Shown piece by piece: positions 1-10,714 of a DNA stretch of 64,000 bases (position 1 is the first letter of the stretch; every line of letters starts with the position of its first letter). The translations under genes and the position numbers were made by a program. Below the pieces are notes generated by a model. It was not told the DNA's origin, did not search any database, and saw nothing but the letters and a program-made list of their open reading frames with translations. This DNA comes from an uncultured Pelagibacteraceae bacterium (GTDB taxonomy: Bacteria; Pseudomonadota; Alphaproteobacteria; Pelagibacterales; Pelagibacteraceae), in the NCBI GenBank assembly GCA_902590465.1, contig CACIWX010000001.1:1-64000 (forward strand). Direction: 5' to 3'.

Positions 1-230
1 AAACCTATTATTTTATCTTTCTCATACTCAAGTTTCCAGCCTTTACCTTCAAGGATTTCAAATATTTTTTTTATTTTTTCATAGTTAATTCTTTTTAAAT
101 CACTCTTATTAAAAAGAAATTTTTCGTGTTCAACACCAATTCTTTGATTGCTTTTTTCTTTAATCCCTTCTGTGAAGTATTGAATTAACTGACTTTTATT
201 TTCGATAGTTGCTTTTGAATTATTGCTCAA
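1..230 (-). CDS. gshA: Glutamate-cysteine ligase N-terminal part, running off the left edge; probable TTG start at 228-230
   Basis: My translation of the reverse complement: (M)[75 protein letters not shown]. The R-I-G-x-E-H-E-K-F motif is typical of proteobacterial/plant-type GCL. Overlaps the stop of the VOC gene. Not in the ORF track because it is truncated and has a non-ATG start. Confidence 0.8.
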   Translation of the reverse strand, partial: MSNNSKATIENKSQLIQYFTEGIKEKSNQRIGVEHEKFLFNKSDLKRINYEKIKKIFEILEGKGWKLEYEKDKIIG

Positions 231-615
231 ATGTTTTTAGCTCTAATACATTTCCGTTAGGATCTTCAACAAAAAATGTATTTTGCTCAAATTCTGTTCC
301 TTTGAATCTCTTATAAGGCTTATCTATATAATTGATTTTGTTAAGCTCAATGTTAGCTTTAATTTTTTCAAATACATCTCTTTTTAAATGAACTCCAAAG
401 TGAGGAACTGGAACGTCTCCCATGTCTACGTCATGTCTTTCTCTAGGAAGTTTCATAGATGTTTGATGTAAAGTGAGTTCATTGCCCCAAAAATCTATAT
501 CAACCCATTTTCCTTTTTCTCTGTTACCAGTTTTGCACCCCAATATTTTCGTATAAAAAGCCTCAGCTTTTTCTAAGTCCCCAGCTGGGATGGCTAAATG
601 AAATGAACTACTCAT
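220..615 (-). CDS. VOC/glyoxalase-family protein
   Basis: [24 protein letters not shown] ... [21 protein letters not shown]-fold pattern. Confidence 0.85.
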
Positions 616-670
616 AAAAGTTTATATACAATCTTCTTTAAATTTTACAAGTAGTCATTATATATTAACT

Positions 671-1249
671 ATGAACGAATACTTAGAATCAATAAAAAAA
701 AGAGATCCTGCGGCTAAATCGATACTAGGTATCATTCTCACATACCCTGGAGTGAAAGCGGTTTTACTTCACAGAGTGGCAAATTTTTTTCACATTGCAG
801 GCTTTCATCTTATTGCAAGAATTATTTCTCAAACTTCTAGATTTTTTACAGGTATTGAAATTCATCCTGGAGCAAAAATTGGTAAAAATTTATTCATCGA
901 TCATGGCATGGGTGTTGTTATTGGAGAAACTTCAGAAATAGGTGATAATGTTACAATCTATCATGCTGTAACTTTAGGTGGAAGTTCCCCGAGTATTGAT
1001 AGCGAAAGACAAAGACATGAAAAAAGACATCCAACGATAGGTGACGAAGTTGTAATTGGTTCTGGCGCACAAATCATTGGCCCAGTTATAGTAGGCAAGT
1101 GTGCAAGGATTGCTGCAAATGCTGTCGTAGTAAAAGATGTACCAGAAAATGCCACGATGGTAGGAGTTCCTGCAAAAGCAGTTAAACTAGAGAATAAAGG
1201 TAAGTTCAGACCTTATGGTGTAGATGATAAAGTTAAAGATGAACAATAA
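671..1249 (+). CDS. cysE: Serine O-acetyltransferase
   Basis: Left-handed beta-helix hexapeptide repeats; [44 protein letters not shown]. Confidence 0.95.
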
Positions 1250-1616
1250 AGATTGGGATCCAAACTTAACCCCAGAGCAAAACTACGTTTTAAGGCAGGA
1301 AGGAACTGAGTCTCCAGGCAGTAGTCAATTAAATAATGAGAAGAGAGAAGGCTCTTATCACTGTGTAGGATGTGGAACAAAACTTTTTGACTCAAGCACA
1401 AAATATGAAAGTGGATCAGGCTGGCCTTCTTTTTACAAATCTCTGCCCGATGTTTTTGAGGAAAAAAAAGACATGCATATAGGTTACCCAAGAACAGAGT
1501 ATCATTGTAAAAAATGTGGTGGCCATCATGGCCATATATTTGAAGATGGGCCAAAACCCACAGGAAAACGTTATTGCAACAACGGTGTTTGCTTAGTTTT
1601 TAAACCTAAAAGTTGA
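1239..1616 (+). CDS. msrB: Peptide-methionine (R)-S-oxide reductase; likely start MNNKDW inside the listed ORF (1224)
   Basis: [17 protein letters not shown] ... [27 protein letters not shown]. Confidence 0.93.
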
Positions 1617-1717
1617 ATAGTTATTAACAAACCAATTAAGTGTTTTAATGCAACCTGGCAATAAATTAAATTATGCGATGCCATGTCCTCTAGACCAAGG
1701 CTACACAAGTTTGTAAG

Positions 1718-1775
1718 ACTTACTAACATCTTTGGTACATCATACAAAACATCTGGACGATTAAATTGTAACACA
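1718..1775. repeat. 58-bp exact direct repeat of 10478-10535 (internal dadA-like sequence, antisense to the local + strand ORF)
   Basis: acttactaacatctttggtacatcatacaaaacatctggacgattaaattgtaacaca occurs identically at both places. Confidence 0.97.
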
Positions 1776-2579
1776 TCTGAAGAAGATTTTGAAAAAAAAT
1801 TTAAAATCGGAAACTATTTAGCTCCATTAACAATTGCTATTTTTGCAAACTCTCCATTTAATGAAAAAAATCTCTCAGGTTATCTATCTTACAGAGGAAA
1901 AGTTTGGCAGGAAACTAATAGGGGCGGGATTATGCCAATTACTTTTGAAAAAGTTAATTTTGAAAAATATATTGATCATGCAATCAATTACCCAGTTTTA
2001 TTTCTTAAAAAAAAAGGAAAATACTACTCACCTAATGGTCAAACTTTTAAAGATTTTTTAAATGGTAATTTAAATTTTTTAATAGGAGAAAAGCCTACTT
2101 TGGAAGACTTTGAAAATCACTTAGGAACTATTTTTACTGAGATAAGATTAAAACAAGTAATTGAATTTAGATCTTTAGATACATGTAATTTTGGCTGTAT
2201 TTGTAACGGCCCTTCTTTTTTTACTGGATTAATTTATGGATCTTTAGATGAAACCTATGAAATAATTAAGGACTGGAAAAAAGAAGATGTAATGGAAGCA
2301 TATTTAAACGCGCCTAAACAAGGGTTAAATACTTTGCTTCACAATAAAAAGCTAATTGATTGGGGAAAAATATTTTTAGATTTATCTAAAAAAGGTTTAG
2401 AAAAAAGAAATGAGCTTGATAAAAGTGGAAAAAATGAAACCATCTACTTAAAACATATAGAGGAAATAATTAAAAATAAAAAAACTAGAGCAGAAATGTT
2501 GATTGAACAATTTAATAAAACAAAAAACTTAAACTTCTTGGTAAATCATGACGAAAATTTTAGCTATTCAGGGTTCTAA
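1776..2579 (+). pseudogene. gshA: Glutamate-cysteine ligase C-terminal part lacking its N-terminal ~180 residues; ORF 1683-2579 starts with foreign, dadA-antisense codons
   Basis: SEEDFEKKFKIGNYLAPLTIAIFANSPFNEKNLSGYLSYRGKVW ... FENHLGTIFTEIRLKQVIEFRSLD matches the C-terminal half of alphaproteobacterial GCL; residues before SEEDF come from the 58-bp repeat. Confidence 0.85.
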
Positions 2580-3465
2580 TCTTAAAAAGGTAAAAATCAA
2601 AACAGATACGACTATTCTATTAGCCACAGAGGCACAAAAAAGAGGATATAAAATATATTATTTTGAACCAAAAGATTTAAGTTTTTTGAATGGAAAAGTT
2701 ATAGCTTCCTGCAAACATATAAAAATTCACGATAACAAAAAGAAATTCTACTCAACAATTAAGGATATTAATTTTAATCTAGAAAAATCAAAGATTATAC
2801 TAATCAGAAATGATCCGCCTTTTGATAATCGATACTTATATACAACATTCTTACTTAACCATATTTCCAAAAAAGTTAAGATAATTAATCATCCATTTGC
2901 AGTAAGGAATGTTTCGGAAAAGCTATTCTCTATTAATTTTTTGAGGTATATGCCTCCTACCTTAATCAGTGAAAATCTAAAAGAAATACAAATTTTTTTT
3001 AAAAGACATAAAACTATTGTGGCTAAACCTATCAATGGTTTTAGTGGAAATAACGTAATTTTATTAAAGTCATTTAATGCTGGTAAAATTAAAAAATTAC
3101 TTAAATCTCATAATCATTTATTTTTTCAAAAGTTTTTACCCGGGGTTTCTAAAGGAGATAAAAGAGTTTTTATAATTAAAGGAAAGATTGTAGGTGCTAT
3201 ATCTAGAGTGCCTAAAAAAGGAAGTATTTTATCTAACATGAGTAAAGGTGCTCACGCTAAGTTAACTAAACTTACAAAAAAAGAGATTAAAGCAAGTAAA
3301 AATATAGGAAAACTATTATTGAAAAATAACATATATTTTGCTGGAATTGATTTTGTTCAAGAAAAATTAATTGGTGATATTAATGTTACCAGCCCTACTG
3401 GCATGGCGGCTTATAAAGAATTATCCGGAATAAACCTTGCAAAATCCTTCTGGAATAATATTTAA
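2548..3465 (+). CDS. gshB: Glutathione synthase, ATP-grasp
   Basis: IRNDPPFDNRYLYTTFLL ... VAKPINGFSGNNVILL ... GIDFVQEKLIGDINVTSPTG. Confidence 0.9.
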   Translation: MTKILAIQGSNLKKVKIKTDTTILLATEAQKRGYKIYYFEPKDLSFLNGKVIASCKHIKIHDNKKKFYSTIKDINFNLEKSKIILIRNDPPFDNRYLYTTFLLNHISKKVKIINHPFAVRNVSEKLFSINFLRYMPPTLISENLKEIQIFFKRHKTIVAKPINGFSGNNVILLKSFNAGKIKKLLKSHNHLFFQKFLPGVSKGDKRVFIIKGKIVGAISRVPKKGSILSNMSKGAHAKLTKLTKKEIKASKNIGKLLLKNNIYFAGIDFVQEKLIGDINVTSPTGMAAYKELSGINLAKSFWNNI

Positions 3466-3611: not shown

Positions 3612-3675
3612 AAATAAAACCGGGTATTTGAACCATATTGTACACCTGGCATATGCCGAAGTACTAAAAAGGAGA
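3612..3675 (+). promoter_or_regulatory. SAM-V-like riboswitch including an SD sequence
   Basis: accgggtatttgaaccatattgtacacctggcatatgccgaagtactaaaaaggag; SAM-V-like motif ending in CTAAAAAGGAG, in tandem after SAM-II. Confidence 0.75.
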
Positions 3676-3680
3676 AGTAG

Positions 3681-3746
3681 ATGAAATCATTAGAACCCCT
3701 CAAAAGATTTCATCTCTCTCCGGTTAATTGGAGAGAGCATGAGTAA
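3681..3746 (+). CDS. 21-aa upstream ORF, MKSLEPLKRFHLSPVNWREHE, overlapping the bhmT start by 8 nt
   Basis: ATG lies 6 nt after GGAG of the SAM-V-like SD; stop TAA at 3744-3746 overlaps the bhmT ATG at 3739 (cATGAGTAA). Confidence 0.6.
   Translation: MKSLEPLKRFHLSPVNWREHE
3714..3737 (+). promoter_or_regulatory. Perfect 8-bp hairpin containing the bhmT SD
   Basis: CTCTCTCC-ggttaatt-GGAGAGAG ending 1 nt before the bhmT ATG (3739). Confidence 0.75.
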
Positions 3747-4861: not shown

Positions 4862-6146
4862 TTTTAAACATCCGGAAACTATTGGCTTACATGGTAGCGA
4901 TTACAGAAGTGATCCTGCAACTACAGCAGTAGCAGTTCCAATTTACCAAACTACATCATACCAATTTAAAAATGCAGAAACAGCTGCAAATTTATTTGGT
5001 TTAAAAGAGTTCGGTAATATTTACACAAGAATAATGAACCCAACATGTGATGTGTTAGAAAAAAGAGTTGCAGCACTAGAGGGTGGTGTAGCAGCACTTG
5101 CGGTTGGTTCAGGTCAGGCAGCATCAGCAATGTGCATACAAAATTTAGCACAAGCTGGTGATAATATCGTTGCTTCAACTGACTTGTACGGAGGTACAGT
5201 AAACTTATTCAAAAATACCCTAAGACAACAAGGTATTGAAGTTAGATTTGCAGATCCTGCGGATCCTAAAAACTTTGAAAAAGTGACTGATGATAAAACA
5301 AGAGCTTACTACGGTGAGTCTTGTCCAAATCCTTATCTTCGTGTGTTCCCAATCAAGGAAGTCTCAGATATCGGTAGAAAAAAGGGTATTCCTTTAATTA
5401 TCGATAACACAGCTTCACCAGTAATTTGTAAACCTTTAGCTCATGGTGCTGCAATCGTAATGCACTCATTGACGAAGTATATTGGTGGTCACGGAACTTC
5501 AATTGGTGGAATAATTGTTGATGGTGGAAACTTTGACTGGATTAAAGACAGAAAAAGACAACCATTAATAAACGAACCTGACCAAAGTTATGGTGGTGCT
5601 ATTTGGGCAGATGCGGTTCCTCAATTAACAGGAGCTAACATTCCTTTTGTAATCAGAGCAAGAGTGGTTTTATTGAGAGACTTAGGTGCTCCTTTAAGTC
5701 CATTTAATGCTTTCCAAATTATTCAAGGTTTGGAGACAGTTGCTCTTAGAATGAAACAACACTGTAGTAATGCAGAGAAAGTAGTTTCATTCTTAGAAAC
5801 ACAAAAGAAAGTGAAAAATGTAATCTACCCAACAAATCACCAAGGTGAGATTAAAGAAAGAGCTAAAAAATATATGCAAGGTGGATATGGTTCTTTAGTT
5901 GGAATGGATTTAGGTACTAAAGAAGCTGGTGCCAAATTCATCGATAACTTAAAGATGTTATATCATGTTGCTAATATTGGTGATGCTAGAAGTTTAGCAA
6001 TTCACCCAGCTACTACTACGCACAGTCAGTTAGATGACGCAGCGTTAGCAGCAGCAGGTGTAACACCAGGTTATGTGAGACTATCTATTGGTATCGAACA
6101 TCCTGATGATATTATTGCAGACATAAAACAAGCATTAGCTGCTTAA
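4854..6146 (+). CDS. metY: O-acetylhomoserine sulfhydrylase, PLP-dependent
   Basis: SDYRSDPATTAVAVPIYQTTSYQF ... VMHSLTKYIGGHGTSIGGII. Confidence 0.93.
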   Translation: MADFKHPETIGLHGSDYRSDPATTAVAVPIYQTTSYQFKNAETAANLFGLKEFGNIYTRIMNPTCDVLEKRVAALEGGVAALAVGSGQAASAMCIQNLAQAGDNIVASTDLYGGTVNLFKNTLRQQGIEVRFADPADPKNFEKVTDDKTRAYYGESCPNPYLRVFPIKEVSDIGRKKGIPLIIDNTASPVICKPLAHGAAIVMHSLTKYIGGHGTSIGGIIVDGGNFDWIKDRKRQPLINEPDQSYGGAIWADAVPQLTGANIPFVIRARVVLLRDLGAPLSPFNAFQIIQGLETVALRMKQHCSNAEKVVSFLETQKKVKNVIYPTNHQGEIKERAKKYMQGGYGSLVGMDLGTKEAGAKFIDNLKMLYHVANIGDARSLAIHPATTTHSQLDDAALAAAGVTPGYVRLSIGIEHPDDIIADIKQALAA

Positions 6147-6966: not shown

Positions 6967-7098
6967 AATTTATTTCGATTTTATATATCTGATTTAATTA
7001 TAAAAAAAAGTTAATTATAAATATTACAAATTTTATTAAGAACAACTTATGATGGTTAATTCTCTAGATTTCTACCTGAGGTTTTCTTTTTAAAGTAA

Positions 7099-7503
7099 TT
7101 AATCTAAATACTTAATATTAGACTTTTTATCTAAATTTGGTTGTATTGATGAAGCAAGATCCCTTAAAGATCCATCTTCTGATTTTTTTAAGATTTTTGA
7201 TTTAGTTGAATGCAATTGTTTTTTTACAATTGAACAAACTTTTGAATTGGTTTTTATAACAAAAGATAAGCAAGGCTCTTTCTTTTTAATATCAGGACTT
7301 TTTTCCTCTGCATAAGCAACAGCGTGCTCTATAGGAAGTTTTCCTGTTGTTTTTTTTACTCCGTAACTAACTGTTGAAGTAAAGGCGCCTCTAGCTAAAT
7401 TTCCACTTGCTGCTGTTGTTGAAGCAGGTCCTAAAAGAGCCACTGATCCAAAGCAACCACTTAATAAAATAAGCATTATTAACAAGCAAAAATTTTTTTT
7501 CAT
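7099..7503 (-). CDS. Small lipoprotein, paralogue of 6535-6966
   Basis: Lipobox LLSGC; VSYGVKKTTGKLPIEHAVAYAEEKSP. Confidence 0.75.
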   Translation of the reverse strand: MKKNFCLLIMLILLSGCFGSVALLGPASTTAASGNLARGAFTSTVSYGVKKTTGKLPIEHAVAYAEEKSPDIKKKEPCLSFVIKTNSKVCSIVKKQLHSTKSKILKKSEDGSLRDLASSIQPNLDKKSNIKYLD

Positions 7504-9454: not shown

Positions 9455-10714
9455 CTAATTAAATCTTTTTGAGCTGTATGGAGTTAAATCTAGATTTGTT
9501 TTTTCTCCTGCAACTATTTTAGAAATAATCTTGCCTGTAATAGCTCCTAATGTCCAGCCTAAATGCTGATGTCCGAAAGCATAGATAATATTTTTATTTT
9601 TTAAAGATGGGCCTATTATTGGAAGAAAATCAGGAAGTGTGGGCCTAAAACCTAACCACTCATCCTCATGACTACCCAGATCAGGAAGGAGTTCTTTTGC
9701 GCATTTTATAATATATTCAATTCTTTTTTTTGATGGAGGATTTTTTAATCCACCTAATTCAACTGTTCCCACAGCTCTTAAGCCTTGATTCATTGGAGTC
9801 ATTCCAAAACCTCTATCTAAAAAAATTACTGGTCGACTTATAAGGTGGTCCTTGCCTTTAAAATGTACATGATAACCTCTTTCAGTATCTAATGGAATAT
9901 CTTCTCCTAATTGATCAGTTAATAATTTGGAAAATGCCCCAGAAGCTATTACTGTTTTTTCAAATTTATATTCCTCTTTTTCAGTTCTTATAACTGTTTC
10001 ATTAGTGTTTATTTGTTCTGAATTTTTTACACTACTTTGAATAAATTTTCCCCCCAGATTTATAAAAAGTTTGAATATTTTTTTTAGAATACCATGTGGA
10101 TCTCTGGCGTGCATTGCACTTTCATAAATTACGCCTGCATCAAAAACTGGTTGTAAATTTGGCTCTAAATCTAATACTTCTTTTTTTGTCAAAAGTTTTT
10201 GTTTAATCCCCAATTCTTCACGAACTTTTATCTCTAAATTCCTACTTTTAAGATTTTTGTTAGTCCAGACATAAATAATTCCTTTTTTTTCAACTAAACC
10301 TGTAGTGTCTATTTCTTGAAAAATTTCTTCATATGCATCATTTGATAAACTTAATATCTGATGCATAGACTTTGCCGTATGCATCATTGATTTTTGATTA
10401 CAATTTTTGAAATAATGTAAAAACCAATTCAACATTTTAGGAATGTAATTCCATTTTAACGCAAGTGGCCCGTAAGAACTTACTAACATCTTTGGTACAT
10501 CATACAAAACATCTGGACGATTAAATTGTAACACAGCGTAGGGAGAAAAATGTCCAGCATTTCCATAAGAAGCTGCTTTAAAAGCATTAGACATTGGATC
10601 GTGTATATCAAAAATAGTAACGGGAATTCCTTTTTTAATTAATTGAAGACCAGTGCAAACTCCTTGTATGCCAGAGCCAATTATTCCAACAGATTTACAT
10701 TTATAATTTTCCAT
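9455..10714 (-). CDS. FAD-dependent D-amino-acid dehydrogenase-like oxidoreductase (DadA/DAO family)
   Basis: GIIGSGIQGVCTGLQLIKKGIPVTIFD; GFRPTLPDFLPIIGPSLKNKNIIYAFGHQHLGWTLG. Confidence 0.9.
   Translation of the reverse strand: MENYKCKSVGIIGSGIQGVCTGLQLIKKGIPVTIFDIHDPMSNAFKAASYGNAGHFSPYAVLQFNRPDVLYDVPKMLVSSYGPLALKWNYIPKMLNWFLHYFKNCNQKSMMHTAKSMHQILSLSNDAYEEIFQEIDTTGLVEKKGIIYVWTNKNLKSRNLEIKVREELGIKQKLLTKKEVLDLEPNLQPVFDAGVIYESAMHARDPHGILKKIFKLFINLGGKFIQSSVKNSEQINTNETVIRTEKEEYKFEKTVIASGAFSKLLTDQLGEDIPLDTERGYHVHFKGKDHLISRPVIFLDRGFGMTPMNQGLRAVGTVELGGLKNPPSKKRIEYIIKCAKELLPDLGSHEDEWLGFRPTLPDFLPIIGPSLKNKNIIYAFGHQHLGWTLGAITGKIISKIVAGEKTNLDLTPYSSKRFN
10478..10535. repeat. 58-bp direct repeat partner of 1718-1775, inside the DAO-family gene
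   Basis: Identical 58 bp; in frame here as part of VLQFNRPDVLYDVPKMLVS. Confidence 0.97.

Follow-up and report, generated by a model that had tools for sequence, protein, structure and literature searches.

At positions 1 to 3465 of the stretch analyzed here (the window, 64,000 nucleotides), gshA, the gene for the plant/alphaproteobacterial-type glutamate-cysteine ligase (GCL), is split into two pieces on opposite strands. The question is whether a SAR11 chromosome really carries this broken gene or whether the break arose while the DNA was being amplified. The earlier note had offered two readings of the layout, a lineage in which glutathione synthesis is broken or rebuilt and a chimeric assembly such as an MDA chimera. 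Our analysis favors the second: in all likelihood, the split gshA is a chimera formed in vitro during amplification and now located at a contig end, in what is probably the genome of a single SAR11 cell.

The gshA gene is assembled in two pieces at a contig end

The window is the start of contig C1 of its own assembly (G000; 706,305 bases in 30 contigs, 66% complete). Two facts bearing on the junction had gone unnoticed in the earlier note: the presence of a 58-bp patch (see below), and the position of the locus, since window position 1 is itself the contig end (G000:C1:1), with no sequence further left in the assembly. The smallest contig is 2,305 bp, so that all contigs exceed 2 kb, in agreement with a single-cell genome pipeline in which 100 bp is trimmed from each contig end and contigs of >2 kb are kept (PMC5519541).

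Profile searches confirmed the split layout that had been read from the open reading frames (Table 1). The minus-strand frame running from 230 to 3 matched TIGR01436 positions 2 to 73 (E 6.7e-13, 47.9 bits), and the plus-strand frame at 1683-2579 matched positions 177 to 440 (E 1.2e-64, 218.4 bits). Neither piece reaches the curated cut-off of 463 bits, a threshold that intact SAR11 gshA copies also miss, at 370 to 408 bits. The N-terminal piece shares 94% DNA identity with positions 5461-5690 of the nearest relative locus (L034, from G021:C2), and the VOC gene, which overlaps the gshA start, has the same orientation as gshA, as in relatives. On the plus strand, gshA homology to the nearest relative begins at 1771-1776 (codon 181, SEEDFEKKF), in line with the breakpoint previously placed at about 1776. 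The first 31 codons of the 1683-2579 frame (MSSRPRLHKFVRLTNIFGTSYKTSGRLNCNT) are read-through of the msrB flank and the patch, and thus do not form a divergent GCL core. A scan against Rfam found the known SAM-V riboswitch upstream of a homocysteine methyltransferase gene at 3739, and nothing besides.

Table 1. Features of the window around the gshA junction and at the source of the patch
Feature	Position	Strand	Evidence or remark
gshA, codons 1-76, TTG start	1-230	-	Runs off contig end
VOC/glyoxalase-family protein	220-615	-	PF00903, E 1e-6
cysE, serine O-acetyltransferase	671-1249	+	TIGR01172, E 9.6e-64, over cut-off
msrB, peptide-methionine (R)-S-oxide reductase	1224-1616	+	TIGR00357, E 1.5e-41, over cut-off; PF01641
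msrB downstream flank	1617-1717	+	92% to L034 4074-3974; homology to relatives stops at 1717/1718
Left joint	1713-1718		GTAAGA, common to relatives' msrB flank and patch donor with a one-base slip
58-bp patch	1718-1775	+	58/58 identical, same orientation, to 10478-10535
Right joint	1771-1775		ACACA, common to patch donor and relatives' intact gshA
gshA, codon 181 to stop	1776-2579	+	95% to L034 6001-6804
gshB, glutathione synthase	2548-3465	+	NF003573, E 1.6e-86, over cut-off; usual place after gshA
SAM-V riboswitch	3613-3677	+	Rfam RF01826, 72 bits
Patch donor	10478-10535	+	Inside an intact gene at 9455-10714 (-), read from its sequence as a putative FAD-dependent (DAO-like) oxidoreductase

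Most gshA-bearing relatives keep gshA intact and collinear

Relatives from this SAR11 genus with loci covering the region have the arrangement msrB<- cysE<- VOC-> gshA-> gshB->, and window positions 1-1717 are inverted relative to it. In the nearest relative, window 1-1718 corresponds to G021:C2 44215-42498 on the minus strand and the window from 1771 onward corresponds to 44521 onward on the plus strand. The proposed inversion of a segment with one end inside gshA thus agrees with dozens of collinear relatives. Codons 77 to 180 are absent between the two assembled pieces, which amounts to about 305 to 310 bp of missing gshA DNA (L034 5690 to 6001; G021:C2 44215 to 44521), within the missing length of 300 to 350 bp that the earlier note had predicted. 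The break in gshA and the break in the msrB flank lie about 2.0 kb apart in the relative (L034 3974 to 6001).

An open gshA frame of at least 430 amino acids is present in 69 of the 82 additional genomes of the genus that carry gshA, the remainder having partial or interrupted copies, many of them at contig ends. In none of these 82 genomes do gshA pieces lie on opposite strands of one contig. Likewise, the 33-base junction pattern GGACGATTAAATTGTAACACATCTGAAGAAGAT, with up to three mismatches allowed, was found in 1 of 169 genus genomes, its own assembly alone. One contig that ends at gshA codon 79 (in G138) was considered as a similar chimera and rejected: its order is normal up to the contig end and gshB begins another contig, and it is therefore an ordinary assembly gap. 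In AG-359-K05 (G030; L089 3914-4650 / L021), gshA lacks about 50 nt internally and is split into two frames, as would follow from an error of assembly or from some different form of damage to gshA.

The junction contains a patch copied from a nearby gene

The two blocks are separated by the 58-bp patch, an exact copy of DNA 8.7 kb away; in relatives, too, the putative oxidoreductase gene that holds the donor lies downstream of gshB. When the whole 706-kb assembly was compared with itself, no near-identical repeat longer than this patch came up. Sequence shared across the joints is short; on the left, strict microhomology is 1 to 3 nt, and the longer match is obtained only by admitting the slip.

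These details bear on whether an assembler might have jumped through shared k-mers with no chimeric molecule present. At 58 bp, the patch exceeds a k of 55 and is thus a repeat within the assembly graph, which speaks for such an error. The joints, in contrast, share only 1 to 6 bases, far under any k-mer length, and the path could therefore have been built only if chimeric reads were present. We give a pure assembly error a very slim chance.

Neither a second junction nor a second gshA copy is found in the assembly

A chromosomal inversion should leave a second, reciprocal junction. Neither the missing middle of gshA (codons 77 to 180) nor the DNA that lies beyond msrB in relatives was found in G000, which is 66% complete; thus, no reciprocal junction was seen in it. 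Contig C1 itself stops about 305 bp before it would reach the breakpoint. The same searches address the suggestion that an intact gshA-gshB pair lies elsewhere and that the plus-strand piece is a truncated extra copy. Relatives carry one intact copy, which would fit such a partial duplication, but the 66%-complete assembly holds just two gshA pieces and one gshB, with no second gshA copy, and both gshA pieces adjoin their usual single-copy neighbors. The likelihood of a partial duplication is accordingly next to nil.

A second inverted contig end occurs in the same assembly

Comparison of the whole assembly with G021 revealed inverted terminal blocks at two places, C1:1-1718 and C5:40428-41043. 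At the right end of contig C5 (38574-41043; L139 18574-20000 and L146 1-1043), a gene whose translations read as a probable photolyase lies in opposite halves, the C-terminal half on the minus strand up to 38574 and the N-terminal half on the plus strand running off the contig end, with the inverted upstream region between them. Compared with G144, a relative that is 97 to 98% identical, 45 bp of this gene is missing. The right end of C5 is apparently a second chimera in the same assembly. If the 100-bp trimming is added back, C5 would end exactly 55 bp past the breakpoint, and the largest k in the single-cell mode of SPAdes is 55 by default. An end placed one k overlap past the breakpoint is what would be expected at a fork where the reads also contained the normal gene path. 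The same rule (fork plus 55 bases, with 100 trimmed) was tried on C1 and failed, since C1 would still end about 205 bp short of its breakpoint with the trimmed 100 bp added back, and so the fork argument is used for C5 only.

Near this end, a gene for a trypsin-like protease, located upstream of the photolyase gene, has on either side one of two 159-bp copies (C5 38712-38870 and 40334-40492) that are 91% alike. Their core of 61 to 63 bp is 98 to 100% conserved across the genus and is doubled in G070 too; it may be a promoter or another conserved element with a regulatory role.

Origin of the junction

The records of the relatives are labeled "Pelagibacteraceae bacterium" and are single-cell assemblies, the nearest ones including AG-917-K20, and the present sample is probably likewise a single-cell genome amplified with phi29 polymerase. 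Among chimeras made by phi29, 85% combine an inverted join with an intervening deletion, for the most part between sites <10 kb apart, which makes such joins the commonest class, and >70% are primed at complementarities of 2 to 21 nt (PMC1855051). A benchmark by the same laboratory of the pipeline likely used here gave 1.5 misassemblies per 100 kb (PMC11247762), from which about 10 would be expected in 706 kb.

We suggest that the joining took place in the tube rather than in the cell. While the genome was being amplified with phi29, a 3' end that was copying gshB and gshA may have been displaced and then have re-primed twice through short matches. The first switch would have been into the oxidoreductase gene 8.7 kb off, where 58 nt was copied. 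The second would have landed a short way past msrB on the other strand, and synthesis would then have returned through msrB, cysE, and VOC into the first part of gshA. The chimeric molecule would afterward have been incorporated by the assembler as the terminal part of contig C1. We think that switches in this direction and order best account for the layout. In the cell, the order is very probably msrB<- cysE<- VOC-> gshA-> gshB->, with gshA intact.

The main competing explanation is that about 2 kb of the chromosome was truly inverted by microhomology-mediated template switching, with the oxidoreductase patch as a templated insertion and gshA destroyed. Template switching with short patches can happen in living cells too, and these natural events carry both patches and microhomology, so the structure of the junction is compatible with them, and the inverted geometry fits. 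Both gshA halves remain near-identical to those of relatives, which is the state expected shortly after such an event, and gshAB is dispensable in some relatives. If true, an inversion of this recency, inactivating gshA in one SAR11 cell, would be a snapshot of the glutathione pathway while it is being lost in a genus where gshAB is already patchy. Against this explanation, neither the reciprocal junction nor the flank beyond msrB was found in the 66%-complete assembly, the contig stops ahead of the second breakpoint, the junction is confined to 1 genome among 169 and shared with no relative, the end of C5 in the same assembly has a like inverted terminal segment, and exactly such artifacts are known to arise at a high rate (PMC1855051, PMC11247762). 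We therefore consider a genuine inversion highly improbable.

Some observations weigh against an amplification chimera as well. Even with the 100-bp trimming restored, the C1 end falls short of its breakpoint, unlike the textbook fork-plus-k end of C5, and the true loss of gshAB in some relatives means that cells of the genus could survive with gshA disrupted. An amplification chimera is nevertheless preferred over a chromosomal inversion because of the patch, the contig end with no second junction seen, the restriction of the junction to a single genome, the C5 case, and the match to the class of chimera that phi29 makes. The reading in which glutathione synthesis is broken or rebuilt in this lineage is thus left unsupported, and the alternative of an MDA chimera, raised at the outset, is the one that the same evidence favors.

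Presence and absence of gshA-gshB in the genus

Since the split is almost certainly an amplification artifact, the C1 layout says nothing about glutathione synthesis in the organism, and a false claim that this synthesis is broken in a SAR11 lineage is removed. There is real biology nearby, in the presence and absence of gshA-gshB, that can be traced independently of contig C1. Among the 169 genomes of the genus, many of them incomplete, gshA is present in 83 and gshB in 87, and a TIGR01436 match is absent from 5 of the 14 genomes that are at least 90% complete. In the close relative G116 (L223, G116:C2:120001-135000, at 7072-7345), gshA-gshB is missing between VOC and bhmt, while metY, bhmt, VOC, cysE, and msrB are all kept in place; this is a clean deletion of the pair. 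The patchiness is seen in several independent assemblies, none of them depending on C1, and gshA-gshB is really a presence/absence pair in this genus. The locus also supplies a signature by which amplification chimeras in single-cell genomes may be recognized from sequence only, namely, an inverted terminal block joined to a short, exact, nearby-copied patch at a contig end.

Comparison with known systems

Set beside the TIGR01436 glutamate-cysteine ligase and gshB of SAR11, both C1 pieces belong to the family, and gshA and gshB have their usual neighbors. Unlike the family, the assembled gshA never forms one frame, with codons 77 to 180 missing and one part on each strand. Rearrangements of the chromosome by template switching, of the MMBIR/FoSTeS type, would leave the same microhomologies and templated patch. 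Such rearrangements, however, need a second junction and show no preference for contig ends, and C1 matches neither feature.

The closest likeness is to the inverted chimeras made by phi29 in MDA (Lasken & Stockwell 2007, PMC1855051). C1 differs from the typical case in that two switches follow one another, a 58-nt patch lying between them, and in that one of its joins is a same-strand jump; same-strand jumps of <10 kb are rarer, making up 11 of 475 phi29 chimeras (PMC1855051). In other respects C1 resembles them closely. Its join is likewise inverted with an intervening deletion, and its partners likewise lie within about 10 kb of each other (about 2.0 kb, with the patch donor at 8.7 kb). Of the 2 to 21 nt of complementarity typical of these chimeras, C1 has ACACA on the right and, with the slip, GTAAGA on the left (strictly 1 to 3 nt), and the relatives of G000 are themselves single-cell amplified genomes.
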